Source: Phycisphaera sp.
Lineage (GTDB): Bacteria; Planctomycetota; Phycisphaerae; Phycisphaerales; UBA1924
Assembly (NCBI GenBank): GCA_025916675.1
Contig: CP098402.1
Span: 2,103,205-2,167,204, forward strand
Length of the DNA: 64,000 bases
Reading direction: 5' to 3'
Below the pieces are notes generated by a model that did not search any database, was not told the DNA's origin, and saw nothing but the letters and a program-made list of their open reading frames with translations. A program made the translations under genes and the position numbers. This document shows positions 40,038 through 48,153 of the stretch, piece after piece; the first letter of the stretch is position 1; each line of letters begins with the position of its first letter.

Positions 40038-43000
40038 TTAGCTCATCGGCTGGTCGGGCTCCTGGGCTGTCGTGGGGGCGGGCTGGGAGCCCGAAAACCC
40101 GCTAGCCGCCTCGGCATCATCGGTGCCACCCGAGGGATCGGCCTTGCGCGACCACACCAGCGGCGCGGCGACGGCGACCGACGAGTAGGTACCCACCATG
40201 ACGCCGATCAGCAGGACGTACGCGAACGGCCGCAGGCCCTCACCACCCATAAAGTAGAGCACGGAAACGGCGAACAGGGTGGTGCCCGACGTGATGACCG
40301 TGCGGCTGAGGGTCTGGTTGATCGACAGGTTCACCACGCGCCGGTTGGCGTAGGGCAGCTTGCCCCGGTTCTCGCGGATGCGGTCCATGATGATGATCGT
40401 GTCGTTCAGCGAGTAGCCGATGATGGTCAGCAGCGCGGCGACGGTGTTGAGATCGATGCGGAAGGGGAGCACGCTGAGGCTGCTGGCGACCTTGGCCCCG
40501 CTTGGGAACTCGTACACCAGTTCGGCGATGGCGATCATGCCAAGGGCGATGAGCACGTCGTGGGCGAGCGCCGTGAGCGCGACCAGCGAGTAGCGGACCG
40601 AGCCGAAGCGGACCCAGATGTAGATCGTGATCAGCACGAAGCTGATCACGACGGCGAACACGGCGCGGCCCCGGAACTCCTGGGCGATGGCCGGGCTGAA
40701 GTTGCTGACGCTTGCCAGCGTCGTCGAGGTCGTGAGCGCCTCGCGCAGCACACGCCACTCCAACTGGCCCACGTCCTGCCACCAGCGATCCCGATCGCCG
40801 AAGTAACTGGTCTGGGGATCAATGGTCAGCAGCACCACCGAGCGGACAGTGCCATCGTCGTACCGATCGAGCACGCGCATCTCGCGCGGGCGACCGAGCG
40901 TGGACGAGAAGTCGGCCTGGCCTCGCAGCAGATCGATGCGCTGTTCGAGTTGCTCGAGCGTCTGGCCCTGGGTGATGTCCTGGAGGACAAGGGCGGCACC
41001 GCCAACGTACCCGTCGACTTCGTCGCGGTACTGAGGCTGGCCGATGTGGGTGCCCAGCGGGGTCGGGCTCGAGATCGGGTAGACCGGCGCGCGGCGTGCG
41101 TCGGTTTCGTCGGATTGAGCAAAGCTGACAGCCGCCTGGACGTCGAGCACGTCCTCGAACGCCCGGGCCAGGGCGTCCTGCACGTCGTCGGCGTTGGTGG
41201 CCAGCGTCTTGATCTGGAAGGTATCGCTCGTCACCCCGTCGTCGTCGGGGTCGAGCGGCACGATGTCGGCCTGCTCGAGCAGCGCGAGCTCGCTGCCCTG
41301 GGGCGCGGCCTCGGCCACTTCCATCACGCGCTCGAGCACCTCGGGACGGGCCAGCTTCTGCTGCTGTCCGGTCGCGTCGTCGGTGCCGAAACGCAGAACG
41401 ACCTGCGTGCCGCCAACGAACTCGGTGTCGAGCATGCGGTCGCGCTGGGTGATGATCAGCGCGATGCTTCCCAGCACCGCAAAGAGCGAGATGGCGTAGG
41501 TGATGTGCCGCAGGCTGACCCAGTTGATCTTGGGCTCGAGCACGCGATCGATGAGCGGGATGGCCGTGGCCAGCATCGACGTCTTGGGCTTGCCAAGCGC
41601 CTTGAGGTTCACGTCGTCGACCAGCACCGATAGCAGCAAGCGGCTGATGACCAGGGCGGCGATCATGGTGCAGACCACGCCGACGCCCAGGGTGATCGCG
41701 AAGCCCTTGACCTCTTGCGTGCCCACGCCAACGAGCACGACGCAGACGATGAGGTTGGTCACGTTGCCATCAACGATGGCCGACAGCGCCCGCTGGTAGC
41801 CCAGCTTGGCGGCCTGGGAGAGGTCGAGCCCGTTTCGCAGTTCTTCGCGGATGCGCTCGAAGATGAGCACGTTAGCGTCCACCGCCATACCGAACGTGAG
41901 CACCACGCCCGCGATGCCGGGCATGGTGAAGGCCGACTGGTTGTGGGCCATCGCGCCCAGGATGAGGGCGGCGTTGCAGCCCAGGGCGATCACCGCAATG
42001 ATGCCGTAGGTGAAGTAGTAGAGCACCATGAAGATGCTGACGGCGATGAGGGCGTAGATGCCGGCCTGCAGCCCGGCGTCGAGGTTGTCCTTACCCAGGC
42101 TCGGGCCGATGGTGTTCTCGCTGATGGGCTCGGGCGACAGGCGGGCCTGGAGTGCGCCGGCGTTGAGGATCTGGATGATGTCGCTGAGTTCTTCGGGTGA
42201 GAAGTCTCCCGAGATGCTGCCGTTGGTTGAGATCCGGCCCTGGAGCGTCGGGGCGGTGATGATGCGATCGTCGAGGATGACCGCCATGTTGTCGCCCACG
42301 TGCTCGCGGGTCAGCTCGCCCAGGCGCTGGCCGCCCAGGGTGTCCATGTTGAAGACGATGTTGCTGCGCCCCAGCTCATCGCGGCCCTGGTAAGAACGGG
42401 TTACCTGCCAGTCGCCCTCGGCGCTGGTCATGCGGTTGCCGACCTGGTCCCAGACCAGCATCCAGTATTGCCCGTCGTACGGCTCGACCACGAAGCCGTC
42501 GCCGCCGCGGTTGGCGAAGAAGCCGACCGGGTCGGCTTCGAGCGCCTCGGACTGCGCGATCGTGTCGAACCACGACTCGATCTTGGCTAGCTGGAGCCAC
42601 ACGGCGCCATCGGGGCTGGCATTGCGCGGGCCGAGCTCTTGAAGCTCTTCGCGCAGGCTGGTCTCGTCGGCCCGGCTATTGGCATCGACGGTGATGCGGA
42701 AGTCGAGCTCGCCCGAACCACGCAGCAGCCGCTTGAGGTCCTGCGGGTCGTCGAGCGAGCGGCGCTCGGCGGTGTACGTGTCGTACGAGGCCTCGATGCG
42801 CTTGAGCTGGGCCTGGAGCGAGCTCTCGCCCTCGGCTTCGCCCGAGCCGGCACGCGCCATCATCGCGTCCCACGCCCGCTGGAACGGGCTTGGCAGCGTC
42901 ACGGGCTCGTTGGCGACGGTGTCCATCTTGCGGGTTTCTTCCCGCGAGAACTCGAGCACGCGCCGCACTTCGGCCGGGGTGATGGACAGCTTCAGGGCCG

Positions 43001-43604
43001 CGTCGCGGGCCGCGTCGTAATCGAGCGCCGCGTCGGCGGCCTGGAACTCGGCCTCGTCGAGCGCGTCCGGATCGGGGTCGGCCTGGCTCAGCAGGTCGCG
43101 GTACGCGTTCTCGGCCGCGACGAGGCGGTCGTAGGCCTGTGCGGCGGTCTGGAGGCGATCGGCCAGCTCGGGGCTGTTCGTGCTGATCTCTTCGATCGAG
43201 GCGGCCCGCTCCTGGGCGTCCTCGCCCATCAGGCGCTCGAACCGCACCGGGTCGATCGTGTACTGGCGGATACGCTCGAGCTCGGCGTCGAATTCCCGCC
43301 GGAGGACCTTCACGTTCTCGGTTGGCAGGGGCATCGTGATCTCGAGGCGGTCTCGCCCCACAGGCACGATGCTGATGTCCATCTGGTTGCCGGGATCGAT
43401 GCGCTCGCCCAGCACGGTGGCCAGCTGGTTGAGGATGTCCTGGGCGTTCTGCCCGGGCTCGATCTGGACGGCGTAGGTGAGCGTCACGCCACCGGCCAGG
43501 TCCTTGCCTAGGCGGAGCTTCTCTTTGGGGGGCATGAAGCCCCAGAACGCGAAGGCGAGCATCGCCATCGCCAGTAGGCCCCATCCCAGTCGGTTGCGCA
43601 TCAT
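40038..43604 (-). CDS. secDF: Fused protein-export protein SecD-SecF
   Basis: 1188 aa, SecD (~1-690) followed by SecF (~700-1170) in one chain. SecD signatures: LGKDLAGGVTLTY, and DANVLIFERIREEL in its helix bundle. SecF signatures: FVGGTQV and the SLNDTIIIMDRIREN helix. About 12 membrane helices are expected. It uses the proton gradient to pull preproteins across the membrane after SecA. The first periplasmic region is expanded (~95-330) with a long charged helical insert that standard SecD lacks. A Pro/Thr/Gln-rich tail ends the protein. Follows yajC by 92 bp. Confidence 0.95.
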   Translation of the reverse strand: MMRNRLGWGLLAMAMLAFAFWGFMPPKEKLRLGKDLAGGVTLTYAVQIEPGQNAQDILNQLATVLGERIDPGNQMDISIVPVGRDRLEITMPLPTENVKVLRREFDAELERIRQYTIDPVRFERLMGEDAQERAASIEEISTNSPELADRLQTAAQAYDRLVAAENAYRDLLSQADPDPDALDEAEFQAADAALDYDAARDAALKLSITPAEVRRVLEFSREETRKMDTVANEPVTLPSPFQRAWDAMMARAGSGEAEGESSLQAQLKRIEASYDTYTAERRSLDDPQDLKRLLRGSGELDFRITVDANSRADETSLREELQELGPRNASPDGAVWLQLAKIESWFDTIAQSEALEADPVGFFANRGGDGFVVEPYDGQYWMLVWDQVGNRMTSAEGDWQVTRSYQGRDELGRSNIVFNMDTLGGQRLGELTREHVGDNMAVILDDRIITAPTLQGRISTNGSISGDFSPEELSDIIQILNAGALQARLSPEPISENTIGPSLGKDNLDAGLQAGIYALIAVSIFMVLYYFTYGIIAVIALGCNAALILGAMAHNQSAFTMPGIAGVVLTFGMAVDANVLIFERIREELRNGLDLSQAAKLGYQRALSAIVDGNVTNLIVCVVLVGVGTQEVKGFAITLGVGVVCTMIAALVISRLLLSVLVDDVNLKALGKPKTSMLATAIPLIDRVLEPKINWVSLRHITYAISLFAVLGSIALIITQRDRMLDTEFVGGTQVVLRFGTDDATGQQQKLARPEVLERVMEVAEAAPQGSELALLEQADIVPLDPDDDGVTSDTFQIKTLATNADDVQDALARAFEDVLDVQAAVSFAQSDETDARRAPVYPISSPTPLGTHIGQPQYRDEVDGYVGGAALVLQDITQGQTLEQLEQRIDLLRGQADFSSTLGRPREMRVLDRYDDGTVRSVVLLTIDPQTSYFGDRDRWWQDVGQLEWRVLREALTTSTTLASVSNFSPAIAQEFRGRAVFAVVISFVLITIYIWVRFGSVRYSLVALTALAHDVLIALGMIAIAELVYEFPSGAKVASSLSVLPFRIDLNTVAALLTIIGYSLNDTIIIMDRIRENRGKLPYANRRVVNLSINQTLSRTVITSGTTLFAVSVLYFMGGEGLRPFAYVLLIGVMVGTYSSVAVAAPLVWSRKADPSGGTDDAEAASGFSGSQPAPTTAQEPDQPMS

Positions 43605-43696: not shown

Positions 43697-44215
43697 TTAG
43701 CTGTTCGTGGCCAGGGCTTCTTCTTCGACCGGGGCGGCCTCGGCCGACCCTCCGCGAGACGAGATGACCTGCTGGATGGCGCTGCGGGCGAATCGGACGC
43801 GGTTCTGGCCCGAATCGTCGACCTTGAGCACGACCTCGTCGGTGCGCACCTCGGCCACGACGCCGATGATGCCGCCGATGGTCTGGACCTTGTCGTTGCG
43901 CTTCAGGGCGTTGAGCATATCGTCGCGCTCGCGCTTCTCTTTCTTTTGGCGGCGGCCGCCGGTGAAGATCATCATCACCAGGAACACGCCCATGCCCAGC
44001 ATGAGGATGAGCATCATGTCCGGGCCGCCCTGCTGGCCAGTCGGTTGGGCACCCCCACCACCGGTCGTGCCGGGGGCTCCCGTCGTGCCGGGCTGGGCCG
44101 TGCTGCCGGCGGGCGCTTCACCGCTCAGCGGCCCCGCCTCCTGATAGGCCAGGGTGGTCGAGAAACTGGAGAAGTCGAGAACGGGAAGAGAGTTGGGCGA
44201 AAAGATGCCATCCAC
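43697..44215 (-). CDS. yajC: Preprotein translocase subunit YajC
   Basis: 172 aa. A Gly/Thr/Pro-rich N-terminal stretch (~25-65) precedes one membrane helix (~66-86) and the YajC core: RRQKKEKRERDDMLNALKRNDKV and TIGGIIGVVAEV. It is longer than E. coli YajC (110 aa) because of the N-terminal extension and acidic tail. YajC associates with SecDF in the holotranslocon, and here directly precedes secDF, the usual arrangement tgt-yajC-secDF. Confidence 0.94.
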   Translation of the reverse strand: MDGIFSPNSLPVLDFSSFSTTLAYQEAGPLSGEAPAGSTAQPGTTGAPGTTGGGGAQPTGQQGGPDMMLILMLGMGVFLVMMIFTGGRRQKKEKRERDDMLNALKRNDKVQTIGGIIGVVAEVRTDEVVLKVDDSGQNRVRFARSAIQQVISSRGGSAEAAPVEEEALATNS

Positions 44216-44263: not shown

Positions 44264-45529
44264 TCAAACCTCACCAACGCCGGACGGGCCGACGCGGGGG
44301 GCATGGTAAGCGGCCTGTGGGATGCCCGACGCCGCGGAGGGCCAGCGATCGGCGAACCCGGCCCAATCGTCGCCGGCGATGGTGGCCCGCAGGTCCATCA
44401 TCAGCCGCTGGTAGAACCGGAGATTGTGCAGCGAGACCAGGATCGGGCCCAGCATCTCCTGGGACATGAACAAATGCCTGATATAGGCCCGGCTGGCCGA
44501 GCGGCCGTGCGTGGGCTGGCAGGCCGGGCAATCGCAGCCGGGCTCCAGGGGCTCGGGATCCTCGGTAAATTTGGCGTTTCGGAGCCTGATCTGGCCCTGC
44601 GGCACGAAGGCGTTGGCGTTGCGGCCATTCCTGCCTGGCAGCACACAGTCGAACATGTCGACCCCCGCGCAGACCGCCGCCACGATGTCCCGCGGGTAGC
44701 CCACGCCCATCAAGTATCGGGGCTTGCCTTCGGGCATCAACGGCGCGGTGAAGCGGACGATGCGGGCGATGTCCTCGCTGGTCTCCCCCACGCTCACCCC
44801 GCCGATGGCGTAGCCGGGCAGGTCGACATTGGTGACTCGCTCGGCCGACCATCGTCGGGCGTCCTCGCTCGTGCCGCCCTGGACGATGCCGAAGAGAGCC
44901 TGCGCGTCGGGCTTGGTATGGGCCTTAGCGCAGCGCTCGAGCCAACGTATGGTGCGCTCGTTGGCGAGTTTGAGGCGGGCGGCGTGGTCGTAGCCATTCC
45001 TGGTGCGATCACGGTCGTGGGCGGCCTGGAGCTTGAGGCGGGTTTGCGAGGCCGGCCCATCGGCCAACTCGATCGCCGGCGGGCAGTCATCGAAGGCCAT
45101 GATGATGTCGGCGCCGATCTTGTTCTGGATGTCCATGGACGCCTCGGGCGTCATGCGGAGCTTCCGACCATCCAGGATCGACCGGAACGTGACGCCGTCC
45201 TCGTCGATGGCGTTGGTGTCGGCCATCGAATACGCCTGGTAGCCGCCCGAGTCGGTGAGGATCGGGCCGTCCCAGCCCATGAAGGCGTGCGCACCACCCA
45301 TGCGGTCGACGAGTTCTGGCCCCGGACGCAGCCAGAGGTGATAGGCGTTGTTGAGCACGACCTGCGCGCCGACCTGGCGGAGCTGCTCGTTGGTCACGCC
45401 CCGCACCGTGGCGCGGGTGCCCACGGTCATGAAGGCTGGCGTGTCGAACACGCCGTAGGGCGTGGTGACGGTTCCCACCCGGCCCTGTGTGCTGCGGCTC
45501 TTTGTCGCGATATCAAAGGTGATGGCCAT
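44264..45529 (-). CDS. tgt: Queuine/preQ1 tRNA-guanine transglycosylase
   Basis: 421 aa TIM-barrel enzyme exchanging G34 of GUN-anticodon tRNAs for the queuosine precursor. Visible: TDSGGYQ, FDDCPP, FGIVQGG, the nucleophile segment FDCVLPGRNGRNA, and a zinc site CDCPACQ ... His in RHLF. The common PTRxARNG turn is PGRNGRNA here. The tRNA-Asp(GTC) in this window is a natural substrate type. It precedes yajC-secDF as in many bacteria. The C-terminal ~45 residues are an extra Pro/Ala-rich part. Confidence 0.95.
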   Translation of the reverse strand: MAITFDIATKSRSTQGRVGTVTTPYGVFDTPAFMTVGTRATVRGVTNEQLRQVGAQVVLNNAYHLWLRPGPELVDRMGGAHAFMGWDGPILTDSGGYQAYSMADTNAIDEDGVTFRSILDGRKLRMTPEASMDIQNKIGADIIMAFDDCPPAIELADGPASQTRLKLQAAHDRDRTRNGYDHAARLKLANERTIRWLERCAKAHTKPDAQALFGIVQGGTSEDARRWSAERVTNVDLPGYAIGGVSVGETSEDIARIVRFTAPLMPEGKPRYLMGVGYPRDIVAAVCAGVDMFDCVLPGRNGRNANAFVPQGQIRLRNAKFTEDPEPLEPGCDCPACQPTHGRSASRAYIRHLFMSQEMLGPILVSLHNLRFYQRLMMDLRATIAGDDWAGFADRWPSAASGIPQAAYHAPRVGPSGVGEV

Positions 45530-45535
45530 GCCCGC

Positions 45536-46489
45536 TCAGCCCCGGCGTTGCCGGTCGGTGGCGTGGCGGAGGGTTTCTTTTTCCTTGTCGGTCAGGCTAC
45601 CCAGGCCCGAGGCCTGGACCTTGTCGAGCACACGGTCGACCTCCTGCTGGCTGATCCCGCCTTGTGCCCTTGGCCGTCCCCTGCCACCCCTTGGTCCTTT
45701 TGGCCCCTTTGGCTTGCGGGAATCGCCGAAGACGTCGAAGAAGTCGATGAGGTGGTGGGTGTTGCGGATAAAGTAGAAGCCCGCGATGGCGCCGCCCAGG
45801 TGGGCCGCCTCGCCGCCGGCGTTCCTGGAACCCGTAAAGAGCATGAAGAACGCGATCGCGACGAAGCCGTAGGCGAAGGTCTTCATCTTGAGCGGGATGG
45901 GCGGGAAGAGCAACTGCACGACGGTGTTGGGCGAGATGTACGCGCAGGCGATCACGATGCCGAACACGCCGGCGGACGCACCAACCAACGGCGTGGCCGG
46001 GTCGCCGGGCAGCAGCAGCGGCAGATTGAGCCCGATCACGCCGCCGAGCAGGTTAAGCAGCAGGTATAAGAGCCCGCCGAAGATGCCGCAGACCAGGTAG
46101 AAGGCGAGGAACTTCTTGGGCCCGAGTTGGTCCTCGACGAGCCGGCCGAAGATGAACAGCCCGAACATGTTGAAGATCAGGTGCATCCAGCCGCCGTGGA
46201 GGAACTGGAACGTGAGGAAGCGCCAGAACTCGAGCCCAAAGATGACCTCGTTGGTCGAGAAGTGGCCGTAGAGCGTCACGGCGTCGACTGGCCCGATGCC
46301 AGGAACGGCATCCGTGGGTTGGCGGATCCACTGGAGCCCCCAGGCGTTCAGAGCGACCAACTGGAACAGGAAGATCGCGACGTTAGCGATGATCAGCGCA
46401 ATCGTCGCTGACACAGGCCAACCGCGATCGGGCCTCAAGCCCGGCGGTGCCTGGTCGCCTCGCATGTAGTTTCGATCGTGCAGCCCCAT
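45536..46489 (-). CDS. Rhomboid-family intramembrane serine protease
   Basis: 317 aa. Six or seven membrane helices; catalytic Ser172 in GASAG and His230 in AAHLGGAIAGF, with Asn107 in the HLIFNMFGL helix. It cleaves membrane-spanning substrates within the bilayer. After the last helix comes a basic Gly/Pro/Arg linker (~258-280) and a C-terminal motif (VLDKVQASGLGSLTDKEKE ...) resembling the DUF6576 tail of Bacteroidetes rhomboids. The same motif ends the neighbouring site-2-type protease. Ends 6 bp before tgt. Confidence 0.93.
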   Translation of the reverse strand: MGLHDRNYMRGDQAPPGLRPDRGWPVSATIALIIANVAIFLFQLVALNAWGLQWIRQPTDAVPGIGPVDAVTLYGHFSTNEVIFGLEFWRFLTFQFLHGGWMHLIFNMFGLFIFGRLVEDQLGPKKFLAFYLVCGIFGGLLYLLLNLLGGVIGLNLPLLLPGDPATPLVGASAGVFGIVIACAYISPNTVVQLLFPPIPLKMKTFAYGFVAIAFFMLFTGSRNAGGEAAHLGGAIAGFYFIRNTHHLIDFFDVFGDSRKPKGPKGPRGGRGRPRAQGGISQQEVDRVLDKVQASGLGSLTDKEKETLRHATDRQRRG

Positions 46490-46579
46490 GGTGCGTTCAT
46501 CGTCCTTGATCTGGGAGGATACTTGGGAAAACCGGCCCGAATCTTGCGGGTGGTGCGGCTCGCGGCCTGATCCTATCGC

Positions 46580-47584
46580 CTATCCGGCCTTGCCCTGGCG
46601 CTTCTTCTCCGATACGCGGTCGAGGAACTTGCGTTCGCGCGGGGTGAGCGAGCTCATGCCCTGCTCGGCGATCTTCTCAAGCAGCTTATCGAACCTGGCC
46701 TCTTCCTCCTGACGCTTCTTGATGGCCGAGAGCTGGGCGCGTGAGGGCTTCTTGGGGCGGCTGTCATCGGTGGCCTGGTAGGCCGCGGCGTACTGGGGCT
46801 CGAAGCCCATCATCTTGAGGCTCTGCTTCTGCTGCCAGCAGGTGAGCCCGCCGAAGAGAGCGATGCCCAATAGAAGCATCTTGTCGAACCCGAAGGCAAA
46901 GACGGCGACGACCACGGCGGCCCCAAAGCCGATGTTGCAGGAAATCCACAGGCTCTTCTCGTAGCCTATCTTGCGCCACATGAGGCACTGCACGATGCGG
47001 CCGCCGTCCATGGGGAACATCGGCAGCATCACGTTGAAAGCCAGCAACAGCGTATTGATGACGTGCAGCAGGAAAATGGTGCGCTCGGCGTAGCCACCGG
47101 GCGGCCCGACGAGTTCCAAGGGGTTGAAGAAGACGTACCGCCAGCTGCCGGTGACGAAGTACGTGGCAAGCCCGAAGATCGGCAGCAGCGCCACGTTGAC
47201 CGCTGGCCCGCCAACCACCGTGATCAACTCGGACTTCCAATCGTGTGGCGGCCGGCAGTACGCCAGACCGCCCAGCGGCCAGAGCAGGATCTCGTCGGCC
47301 TCGCCCTTCACCGATCGGCACGCGAAGCAGTGGCCGTACTCGTGCAGCAGCACGATGCCAAATAGGCAGGTCAGCCAGATCGCAGTCATCGTGAACCCAT
47401 AGCTGCTGGGCCCGGCAGAGCGGATGAACTCGATGGCGATGAAGATGATGAAGAACAGGTGGAGCTTGACGGTGATGCCCCACAGCCGGTAGAGCGGCAG
47501 CGCCCAGCGCATGGGGTTGTCGCCCTCGCCGAAGACGCGCGACATGAAGCCGCGCGGGCCGCTCCCTCTCCAGTTCTCCGTCAC
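46580..47584 (-). CDS. Site-2-type intramembrane zinc metalloprotease (M50 family)
   Basis: 334 aa. HEYGH (81-85) gives the zinc-binding HExxH, and NVMLPMFPMDGGR (184-196) the third ligand region. About six membrane helices. Such proteases release anti-sigma factors or clear signal peptides. After a basic linker the C-terminal ~40 residues (FDKLLEKIAEQGMSSLTPRE...) share the motif seen in the adjacent rhomboid. Start GTG at 47584 overlaps the Nudix stop as GTGA; ATG at 47545 is the alternative. It lacks a PDZ domain, so is not a standard RseP. Confidence 0.9.
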   Translation of the reverse strand: MTENWRGSGPRGFMSRVFGEGDNPMRWALPLYRLWGITVKLHLFFIIFIAIEFIRSAGPSSYGFTMTAIWLTCLFGIVLLHEYGHCFACRSVKGEADEILLWPLGGLAYCRPPHDWKSELITVVGGPAVNVALLPIFGLATYFVTGSWRYVFFNPLELVGPPGGYAERTIFLLHVINTLLLAFNVMLPMFPMDGGRIVQCLMWRKIGYEKSLWISCNIGFGAAVVVAVFAFGFDKMLLLGIALFGGLTCWQQKQSLKMMGFEPQYAAAYQATDDSRPKKPSRAQLSAIKKRQEEEARFDKLLEKIAEQGMSSLTPRERKFLDRVSEKKRQGKAG

Positions 47585-48153
47585 TGGCCAAGCCCCAGCA
47601 GGCCGGCGGCGTGGGCGCGCACGATGGGGATCACGCTCTTGGCGTCCATCAGCCGGCCGTCGTCGATCATCGCCAGCGCCTCGTCGGCTGTCACTTCGTG
47701 CACCTCGATGTGCTCGCCCTCGTCCAAGTCCTGGCCCACGTGGGTCAGCCCACGGGCCACGAACACGTGCATCACCTCGTCGGTCATGCCCGGCGTGGTA
47801 TAGAACCGCCCGAACGGCTCCAATGTTGCGGCCTTGTAGCCGGTTTCTTCGATCAATTCGCGCCCGGCGCACACGAGCGGCTCCTCGCCCGGATCGATCG
47901 TGCCCGCGGGGATCTCCCAGAGCGATTGCCCCACCGCGGGCCGCTGGTTGCGGATGAGCACCAGGGTGGCGGGTTCGTGCTCGGTGGCCTCGGTCAGGAT
48001 GGGCAGGATGGCGCAGGCACCGGGGTGGCGGACGATCGCCATCTCGCGCGTGCCATCATCCGCGGGCAGCGTGAGCAGTTCGACGTTGAACTTGGCACCC
48101 TCGTAGAGCACCTTGGTGTCAATGGGCTTGGGTGTGGCATCAGTGCCGGCCAT
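47581..48153 (-). CDS. Nudix hydrolase, ADP-ribose pyrophosphatase-like
   Basis: 190 aa. The Nudix box runs from GTIDPGEE to RELIEETGY, with REUxEExGU intact. The N-terminal strand exchange domain and RNQRPAVGQSLWEIPAGTID layout match ADP-ribose/ADP-sugar pyrophosphatases. It would hydrolyse ADP-ribose or a nucleotide sugar. It begins right at the enolase stop and overlaps the protease start, so all three are co-transcribed. Confidence 0.9.
   Translation of the reverse strand: MAGTDATPKPIDTKVLYEGAKFNVELLTLPADDGTREMAIVRHPGACAILPILTEATEHEPATLVLIRNQRPAVGQSLWEIPAGTIDPGEEPLVCAGRELIEETGYKAATLEPFGRFYTTPGMTDEVMHVFVARGLTHVGQDLDEGEHIEVHEVTADEALAMIDDGRLMDAKSVIPIVRAHAAGLLGLGQ

Follow-up and report, generated by a model that had tools for sequence, protein, structure and literature searches.

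Rhomboids of the GlpG type (S54) and metalloproteases of the site-2 protease/SpoIVFB group (M50) are unrelated intramembrane proteases, the former built around a Ser-His dyad in the GlpG fold and the latter around a HExxH motif with a distal Asp-Gly (DG) site. For most bacterial rhomboids, no substrate or partner is known. In Bacillus subtilis, the rhomboid YqgP is both a protease and a catalysis-independent adaptor of FtsH (PMC7231995). Here we analyze a stretch of 64,000 nucleotides from a Phycisphaera sp. genome (contig CP098402.1, positions 2,103,205 to 2,167,204; this whole stretch is called the window below), in which a rhomboid gene and an M50 gene lie side by side and the products of both end in DUF6576 (PF20216), a family of unknown function. 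Comparison of these proteins across the Planctomycetota makes it, in our judgment, somewhat probable that the serine rhomboid and the zinc site-2 protease serve as interchangeable cores on one shared cytosolic attachment.

A C-terminal tail common to two protease classes

Both window tails score above the curated PF20216 cut-off of 27.3 bits (35.5 for the rhomboid, 38.3 for the M50), and the 3.6 Mb genome holds these two DUF6576 matches and no others. The two tails belong to one family. A profile hidden Markov model (HMM) of rhomboid tails alone matched 57/57 tailed M50s (median 54.5 bits) and none of the 57 once their last 60 residues had been shuffled, and the reverse model, of M50 tails, matched 84/84 tailed rhomboids and 0/84 shuffled ones at E 1e-3. 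These cross-family models with their shuffled controls rule out chance resemblance. Recent gene conversion between the window’s two tails was likewise rejected, since at 23% identity over the aligned stretch they are not recent copies. A kinship of the tail with further Pfam families was rejected too, all matches to them being weak (E 0.012 or worse). The observation from which this work began, an initial annotation of two neighboring proteases with a matching tail, is thus borne out, and the tails do align in orthologues.

Each core has the hallmarks of its own protease class. In the rhomboid, Ser172 and His230 are invariant, PF01694 matches, and the predicted structure resembles the GlpG fold (2irv_B, TMt 0.72); in the M50, the HExxH motif and the distal Asp193 of the DG site are invariant, PF02163 matches, and the predicted structure resembles 3b4r_A (E 9.6e-12, TMt 0.79), with 8vjm and 8vjl as the other best solved folds. 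The AlphaFold2 models, made from alignments of 47 rows each (the window protein plus 46 of 80 M50s or 46 of 67 rhomboids from its named relatives), give a site-2 protease fold and a GlpG fold for the respective cores and a predicted two-helix hairpin for each tail, with helices at residues 281-294 and 301-316 of the rhomboid and 282-308 and 315-333 of the M50. Confidence in the tails is high, with a mean predicted local distance difference test score of 91-95 in most ten-residue blocks and of 68, 77 and 83 at the edges. Among the 39 of 57 tailed M50s that were aligned here, tail residues L302, K304, G309, L313, E317 and L321 are as invariant as the catalytic H81, E82, H85 and D193.

In samples with one genome per species, DUF6576 occurs in 184/199 genomes of the phylum and in 117/120 genomes of the window’s class. 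We opened every class match (142 outside the window and the window’s two) and 36 from other classes, part of those listed there, and all 180 hosts examined in Planctomycetota are rhomboids, M50s or degenerate forms of these (144/144 in the class, 36/36 elsewhere). The class hosts comprise 86 rhomboids and 56 M50s besides the window’s two, with 15 of the 142 assigned by reading the sequence, and the hosts from other classes comprise 24 rhomboids and 12 M50s, each placed with whichever of the two profiles scored it higher.

Counted by genome (n=117, window included), 60 class members carry one tailed rhomboid, 30 carry one tailed M50 and 27 carry two tailed proteins. These 27 consist of 23 genomes with one of each kind, the window’s among them, two with two rhomboids and two with two M50s. 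Two genomes were counted as M50-only despite an adjoining rhomboid, whose tail is undetectable in one (G077) and diverged in the other (G233). In genome G006 (locus L197), two tailed M50 genes lie about 1.4 kb apart, with no rhomboid in that stretch.

The proteases share a second element at the opposite end, an N-terminal M-x-W/I/L-x-D-R-x-Y motif. Scored by a pattern slightly wider than M-G/S/A-W/I/L/F/Y-x-D/E/N-R-x-Y, it opens 75/84 tailed rhomboids and 32/57 tailed M50s, as against 0/20 tail-less M50 paralogues and 6/20 tail-less rhomboids, controls that were chosen by hand from longer lists. Tailed rhomboids outside the class have it in 12 of 24 cases. At the DNA level, a pattern for the W form had 52 matches in 120 genomes, 45 of them at starts of tailed proteases (matched by eye to fetched genes, the G233 rhomboid included) and 7 elsewhere; the backward control also gave 7. 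A wider use of the motif was considered and rejected: a tail-anchored zinc-ribbon protein in G235 (L354:1126-1524, minus strand) starts MGWQDRDY, and it is unique in this among 24 members of its family that were read.

A slot next to NUDIX occupied by either core

Across the window’s class, the same genomic slot, downstream of a gene for a NUDIX hydrolase, is occupied now by a rhomboid and now by an M50. Such a gene lies at most 300 bp upstream on the same strand at 32/41 M50-only, 29/69 rhomboid-only and 16/17 two-gene loci (77/127 class loci in all). On a tree of the NUDIX proteins of the class (80 loci, the 47/127 without a usable NUDIX open reading frame being omitted), the content of the slot switches at least 10 times among 62 single-protease loci, and still at least 9, 4 and 2 times after branches with support under 80, 95 and 99 are collapsed. 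In family f84 (families, genomes and loci bear f, G and L numbers), 8 of 17 genomes have a tailed M50, 8 have a tailed rhomboid, none has both, and one, a genome 75% complete, has neither. To explain the NUDIX tree of 16 of these genomes takes a minimum of 6 switches, of which two fall within genera; this is a quick tree in which 6 of 13 forks are weak. In each f84 genome with a tailed M50, the rhomboid search matched the tail and, beyond that, no more than one further site, weakly and distantly.

Comparison of close relatives revealed where one core gives way to the other. G200, with a rhomboid, and G228, with an M50, are single-contig genomes of the same genus in which the flanks of the slot are colinear and 82-85% identical in nucleotide sequence. 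This similarity extends across the first codons (MSWEHR), drops to background and resumes at the tail (EVDRILEKVHQNGIQSLTEREKKTLADATHKQQA), with the core alone differing. In another genus of the same family, G306 (M50) and G308 (rhomboid) have flanks 84-86% identical, and there too the 3′ seam coincides with the point where the tail begins, while the 5′ seam falls at the end of the NUDIX gene, ahead of the start codon, meaning that in this case core and N-terminus arrived together. Within family f2, two rhomboids in G185 correspond to a rhomboid and an M50 in G246, between flanks that are 69-75% identical, and the second genes of the two genomes have tails that match at the same place (77% over 69 nucleotides). 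All three pairs combine homologous flanks with a non-homologous core in close relatives, the signature of exchange in place, and in the close pairs examined this exchange leaves the resident tail where it was.

The window itself shows a variation on this arrangement, an M50 behind its NUDIX gene with an adjoining rhomboid, of a clade we named RHO-A, that bears the tail as well. The adjacent tailed pair is found in 8/8 genomes of the window’s family in the class sample, and also in f2, f81, f82, f93 and f94; the order is M50-rhomboid in f1, f81 and f82 and rhomboid-M50 in f2, f93 and f94. Among the window’s named relatives, the best 80 of 358 loci in a genome scan seeded with tailed M50s, the M50 is tailed in 80/80 and a tailed rhomboid adjoins it in 66/80; of the rest, one has a rhomboid on which no tail was detected and 13 have no rhomboid, 4 of the latter ending no more than about 0.8 kb from the end of their contig. 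The pair is thus conserved in close relatives, where its absence would have told against the initial annotation. Co-occurrence of pair and tail is borne out within the window’s taxonomic order but not for the greater part of the class, in which 90/117 genomes have a single tailed protein; at 34 loci examined from other classes, no adjacent rhomboid-M50 pair was seen. In genus g216, the M50 lies directly behind the rhomboid in G257 and on another contig in G269 (L107, L171, L092), and homology between the two genomes stops at the rhomboid stop codon.

The genes downstream in the window include yajC and two that we take, from their sequence, to be tgt and secDF (Table 1). The initial annotation placed the pair beside tgt-yajC-secDF, which is accurate for the window; this neighborhood was found at 17/127 loci, in families f1, f2, f3, f81 and f82, all within the window’s order. 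The neighbor survey covered about 5 kb on either side and the 60 largest gene clusters, skipping those in fewer than three families, and in the surveyed stretches it is NUDIX that is the more general neighbor, leading us to reject tgt-yajC-secDF as the general context. In the window, tgt starts 6 bases past the rhomboid stop codon. The GTG start of the M50 at 47584 is our choice, the longest open reading frame extending to 47872; from this GTG, the gene overlaps the stop codon of the upstream NUDIX gene by 4 bases.

Table 1. Features of the protease locus, in window coordinates
Feature	Position	Strand	Details
M50 (site-2) intramembrane metalloprotease	46580..47584	-	334 aa from GTG; PF02163 47.9 bits
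M50 zinc site HEYGH, residues 81-85	47330..47344	-	from translation; H81, E82 and H85 invariant
M50 distal Asp193 (FPMDGG), third zinc ligand by analogy	47006..47008	-	from translation; D193 invariant
DUF6576 tail of M50, residues 290-327	46604..46717	-	PF20216 38.3 bits; 41.9 bits in genome-wide scan
Rhomboid intramembrane serine protease, GASA motif, clade RHO-A	45536..46489	-	317 aa; PF01694 102.2 bits
Rhomboid N-terminal motif MGLHDRNY	46466..46489	-	from translation; M1 and Y8 invariant in 47 aligned rhomboids
Rhomboid catalytic Ser172 (GASA)	45974..45976	-	invariant in rhomboid alignment
Rhomboid catalytic His230	45800..45802	-	invariant in rhomboid alignment
DUF6576 tail of rhomboid, residues 280-307	45569..45652	-	PF20216 35.5 bits
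NUDIX hydrolase, frequent upstream neighbor of the protease slot	47581..48153	-	PF00293 64.6 bits
tgt	44264-45529	-	downstream neighbor; name presumed from sequence
yajC	43697-44215	-	downstream neighbor; YajC by Pfam
secDF	40038-43604	-	downstream neighbor; name presumed from sequence

With respect to the origin of the cores, a FastTree phylogeny separates 57 tailed M50 cores from 20 tail-less M50 paralogues by one branch (support 98), and the tailed cores group largely by family, with f87 falling in two places. Tail-less paralogues from the same genomes (L282-L288, L293, L294, L297-L300) have a zinc-ribbon-like CPxC...CxxC end instead of DUF6576. On the rhomboid side, GASA is typical of RHO-A and is no clean divider, as the GASG rhomboids of f3 and G185 adjoin that clade (support 99) and GASA is also found in f5, f83, f90 and f91.

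Exchange, loss and the role of the shared ends

We infer from these patterns that the DUF6576 hairpin, often together with the N-terminal motif, would be a cytosolic attachment that either protease core can carry. The ends would dock both enzymes on the same putative cytosolic partner or complex at the inner membrane, and a membrane protein would then be cut in an equivalent way by either core, such that one, the other or both would suffice. That the ends of both enzymes would be cytosolic follows by analogy with the topology of GlpG and of site-2 proteases, together with the basic linkers. By gene position, the NUDIX protein would be the first candidate partner, because it is the most constant neighbor found, often with a 4-base overlap. 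The distribution of the N-terminal motif in the class sample, where it is present on 30/34 M50s from genomes without a tailed rhomboid and on 2/23 from genomes with one, fits an M50 that took over the rhomboid’s start on taking its place and later lost it in some lineages, the window’s included. The G306/G308 pair, in which the start came with the core, indicates that such a takeover is not the sole route.

The degenerate members of the family bear on whether the ends have a role of their own. We scored catalytic residues in the class by alignment column, leaving out three partial rhomboids (G220, G268 and G244), and found 10 tailed proteins that lack a catalytic residue: five f95 rhomboids and the M50s of G282, G288, G272, G295 (E82D) and G259. 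For nine of the 10, all but that of G259, the genome also encodes a tailed partner that is intact, and at least one intact tailed protease is present in 113/114 class genomes (the three with partial sequences set aside). Degenerate proteins are concentrated in two-protein genomes (Fisher p 0.0008, with five of the nine from one family). The f95 rhomboids (L170, L124, L162, L173, L180) have no catalytic residues and keep both N-terminal motif and tail, as would be expected if the ends have their own role; each lies on another contig than, or 19 kb from, an intact tailed M50 that lacks the N-terminal motif.

Several observations weigh against a common attachment for interchangeable cores. In the window’s order, the pair is mostly kept together, as the 66/80 named loci attest, so rhomboid and M50 are not simply redundant there. 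The tail is also dispensable to the RHO-A clade, whose rhomboids exist both with it (f1, f2, f81, f82) and without it (f85, f87, G077). The named relatives break the class pattern of the N-terminal motif, which by a loose pattern opens 28/80 of their M50s, mostly beside a tailed rhomboid (19 of these 28 with an aromatic residue at position 8); its presence on M50s only where a tailed rhomboid is missing is therefore no general rule, and the window’s own M50 lacks the motif, as do 12/12 tailed M50s outside the class. As for the slot, a NUDIX gene is missing from the nearest 300 bp at 50/127 class loci; 40 of these are rhomboid-only, of which 4 lack upstream room and 26 come from families f4-f6, f86, f95, f96 and f97. 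The counts also cluster by family, and the switches rest on short NUDIX trees, while the seam at the tail could merely mark where recombination is possible. Finally, the single tailed M50 of G259 carries H85R, and 13/24 tailed rhomboids outside the class lack G[AS]S, as judged by pattern rather than alignment and with intact partners checked in part.

These 13 sequences (L194, which reads GPSG, L195, L196, L201, L322, L323, L326, L327, L329, L331, L334, L335 and L341) are apparently bacterial pseudo-rhomboids with a DUF6576 tail. Four of their genomes (G161, G188, G044, G108) also have a tailed M50 with HExxH. Among tailed M50s outside the class, 1/12 lacks HExxH; it is found in G152 (L188), whose tailed rhomboid has GASA (L189).

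Allied to the reading of interchangeable cores on a common attachment, and more tentative, is the possibility that the two cores are alternative alleles at the slot, set between an upstream region and a cytosolic tail that are both constant. Recombination with one seam at the tail would swap the cores, either enzyme would perform an identical task on a shared tail-binding partner, and degenerate cores would survive as tail-bearing adaptors. Its rival is differential loss, in which an ancestor with both tailed genes in tandem lost one of them per lineage, with junctions in the repeated ends and with no need of a common end function. In favor of such loss, tandems do exist in either order, tailed M50 cores largely follow family lines across a single branch from their tail-less paralogues, and on the core trees the G200 rhomboid groups with that of G239 and the G228 M50 with that of G245 (with more rows, with G314, support 81). 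Against this, the absence of any f84 genome with both genes argues for exchange: with at least 6 switches in that family, two inside genera, any tandem ancestor would need to have gone unseen at those splits. Differential loss moreover accounts for the route by which single genes arose and not for conservation of the tail at the level of an active site, and we regard it as unlikely.

Less likely still, in our estimate, is the pathway that the initial annotation had proposed, with rhomboid and site-2 protease drawn by their common tail to a single substrate that they cut in sequence. The tailed pair is indeed adjacent in most named relatives and throughout the window’s family, both genes are kept in G257 and G269 even with the M50 on another contig, and tails from the same genome resemble each other slightly more than tails from different genomes (0.464 vs 0.437 over 58 of 66 pairs, the 8 without a clear tail pattern omitted; 0/5000 permutations were as high, with relatedness not controlled). 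Conservation of the pair makes a joint role possible in the window’s order. Yet most class genomes have one tailed protease only, catalytic residues can be lost from either partner beside an intact counterpart, and the split in f84, with 0/17 genomes holding both, looks like substitution and not sequence. What survives of the initial proposal is the common docking tail, supported by its restriction to two host families, its active-site-level conservation and its persistence when the core changes; the two-step cleavage is left unsupported. A generic helical hairpin for folding, stability or degradation, without a common partner and with NUDIX linkage and swaps arising from recombination-prone ends, is very improbable, for although the tail is short and charged and RHO-A can do without it, such a tag would be expected on other membrane proteins too, and 180/180 hosts are intramembrane proteases or their degenerate forms.

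Comparison with known systems

Our literature searches found no paper on DUF6576, none combining rhomboid, site-2 protease and planctomycete, and none combining non-orthologous displacement with a rhomboid, and the portion of a rhomboid review covered here (PMC12615303) does not mention planctomycetes. In the literature searched, there thus appears to be no description of intramembrane protease cores from unrelated families replacing each other on a common tail. Relative to what is known of DUF6576, the M50 hosts and the core exchange are described here. A tail that is present on both protease classes and kept through core exchange suggests that rhomboid and site-2 chemistries can be functionally equivalent, and the slot would be a natural experiment in which one protease chemistry is replaced by another in the same gene. 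The tail also points to one putative cytosolic binding partner, reachable with a 40-residue peptide, which would give a handle on the roles of planctomycetal intramembrane proteases and pseudoproteases.

While the window’s rhomboid has the dyad and fold of GlpG-type rhomboids, it differs from them in its N-terminal motif and DUF6576 tail. The M50, likewise, has the HExxH and DG site of the site-2 protease/SpoIVFB group and differs in its tail and, in many relatives, in a rhomboid-like N-terminal motif. Non-orthologous gene displacement in place and the idiomorphs of fungal mating-type loci both put unrelated sequences, as alternatives, between flanks that stay constant. The slot behind NUDIX resembles these cases, except that here the cores alternate within a single open reading frame, the C-terminal tail of which is itself constant. 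In function, YqgP with FtsH offers a likeness, a bacterial rhomboid with a cytosolic regulatory domain whose adaptor role (PMC7231995) would fit the degenerate tailed rhomboids and shows that a role of this kind, independent of catalysis, exists. The cytosolic domain of YqgP is, by the same account, N-terminal and metal-binding and its partner is FtsH, whereas the likeness drawn here comes from degenerate sequences that have kept their ends.

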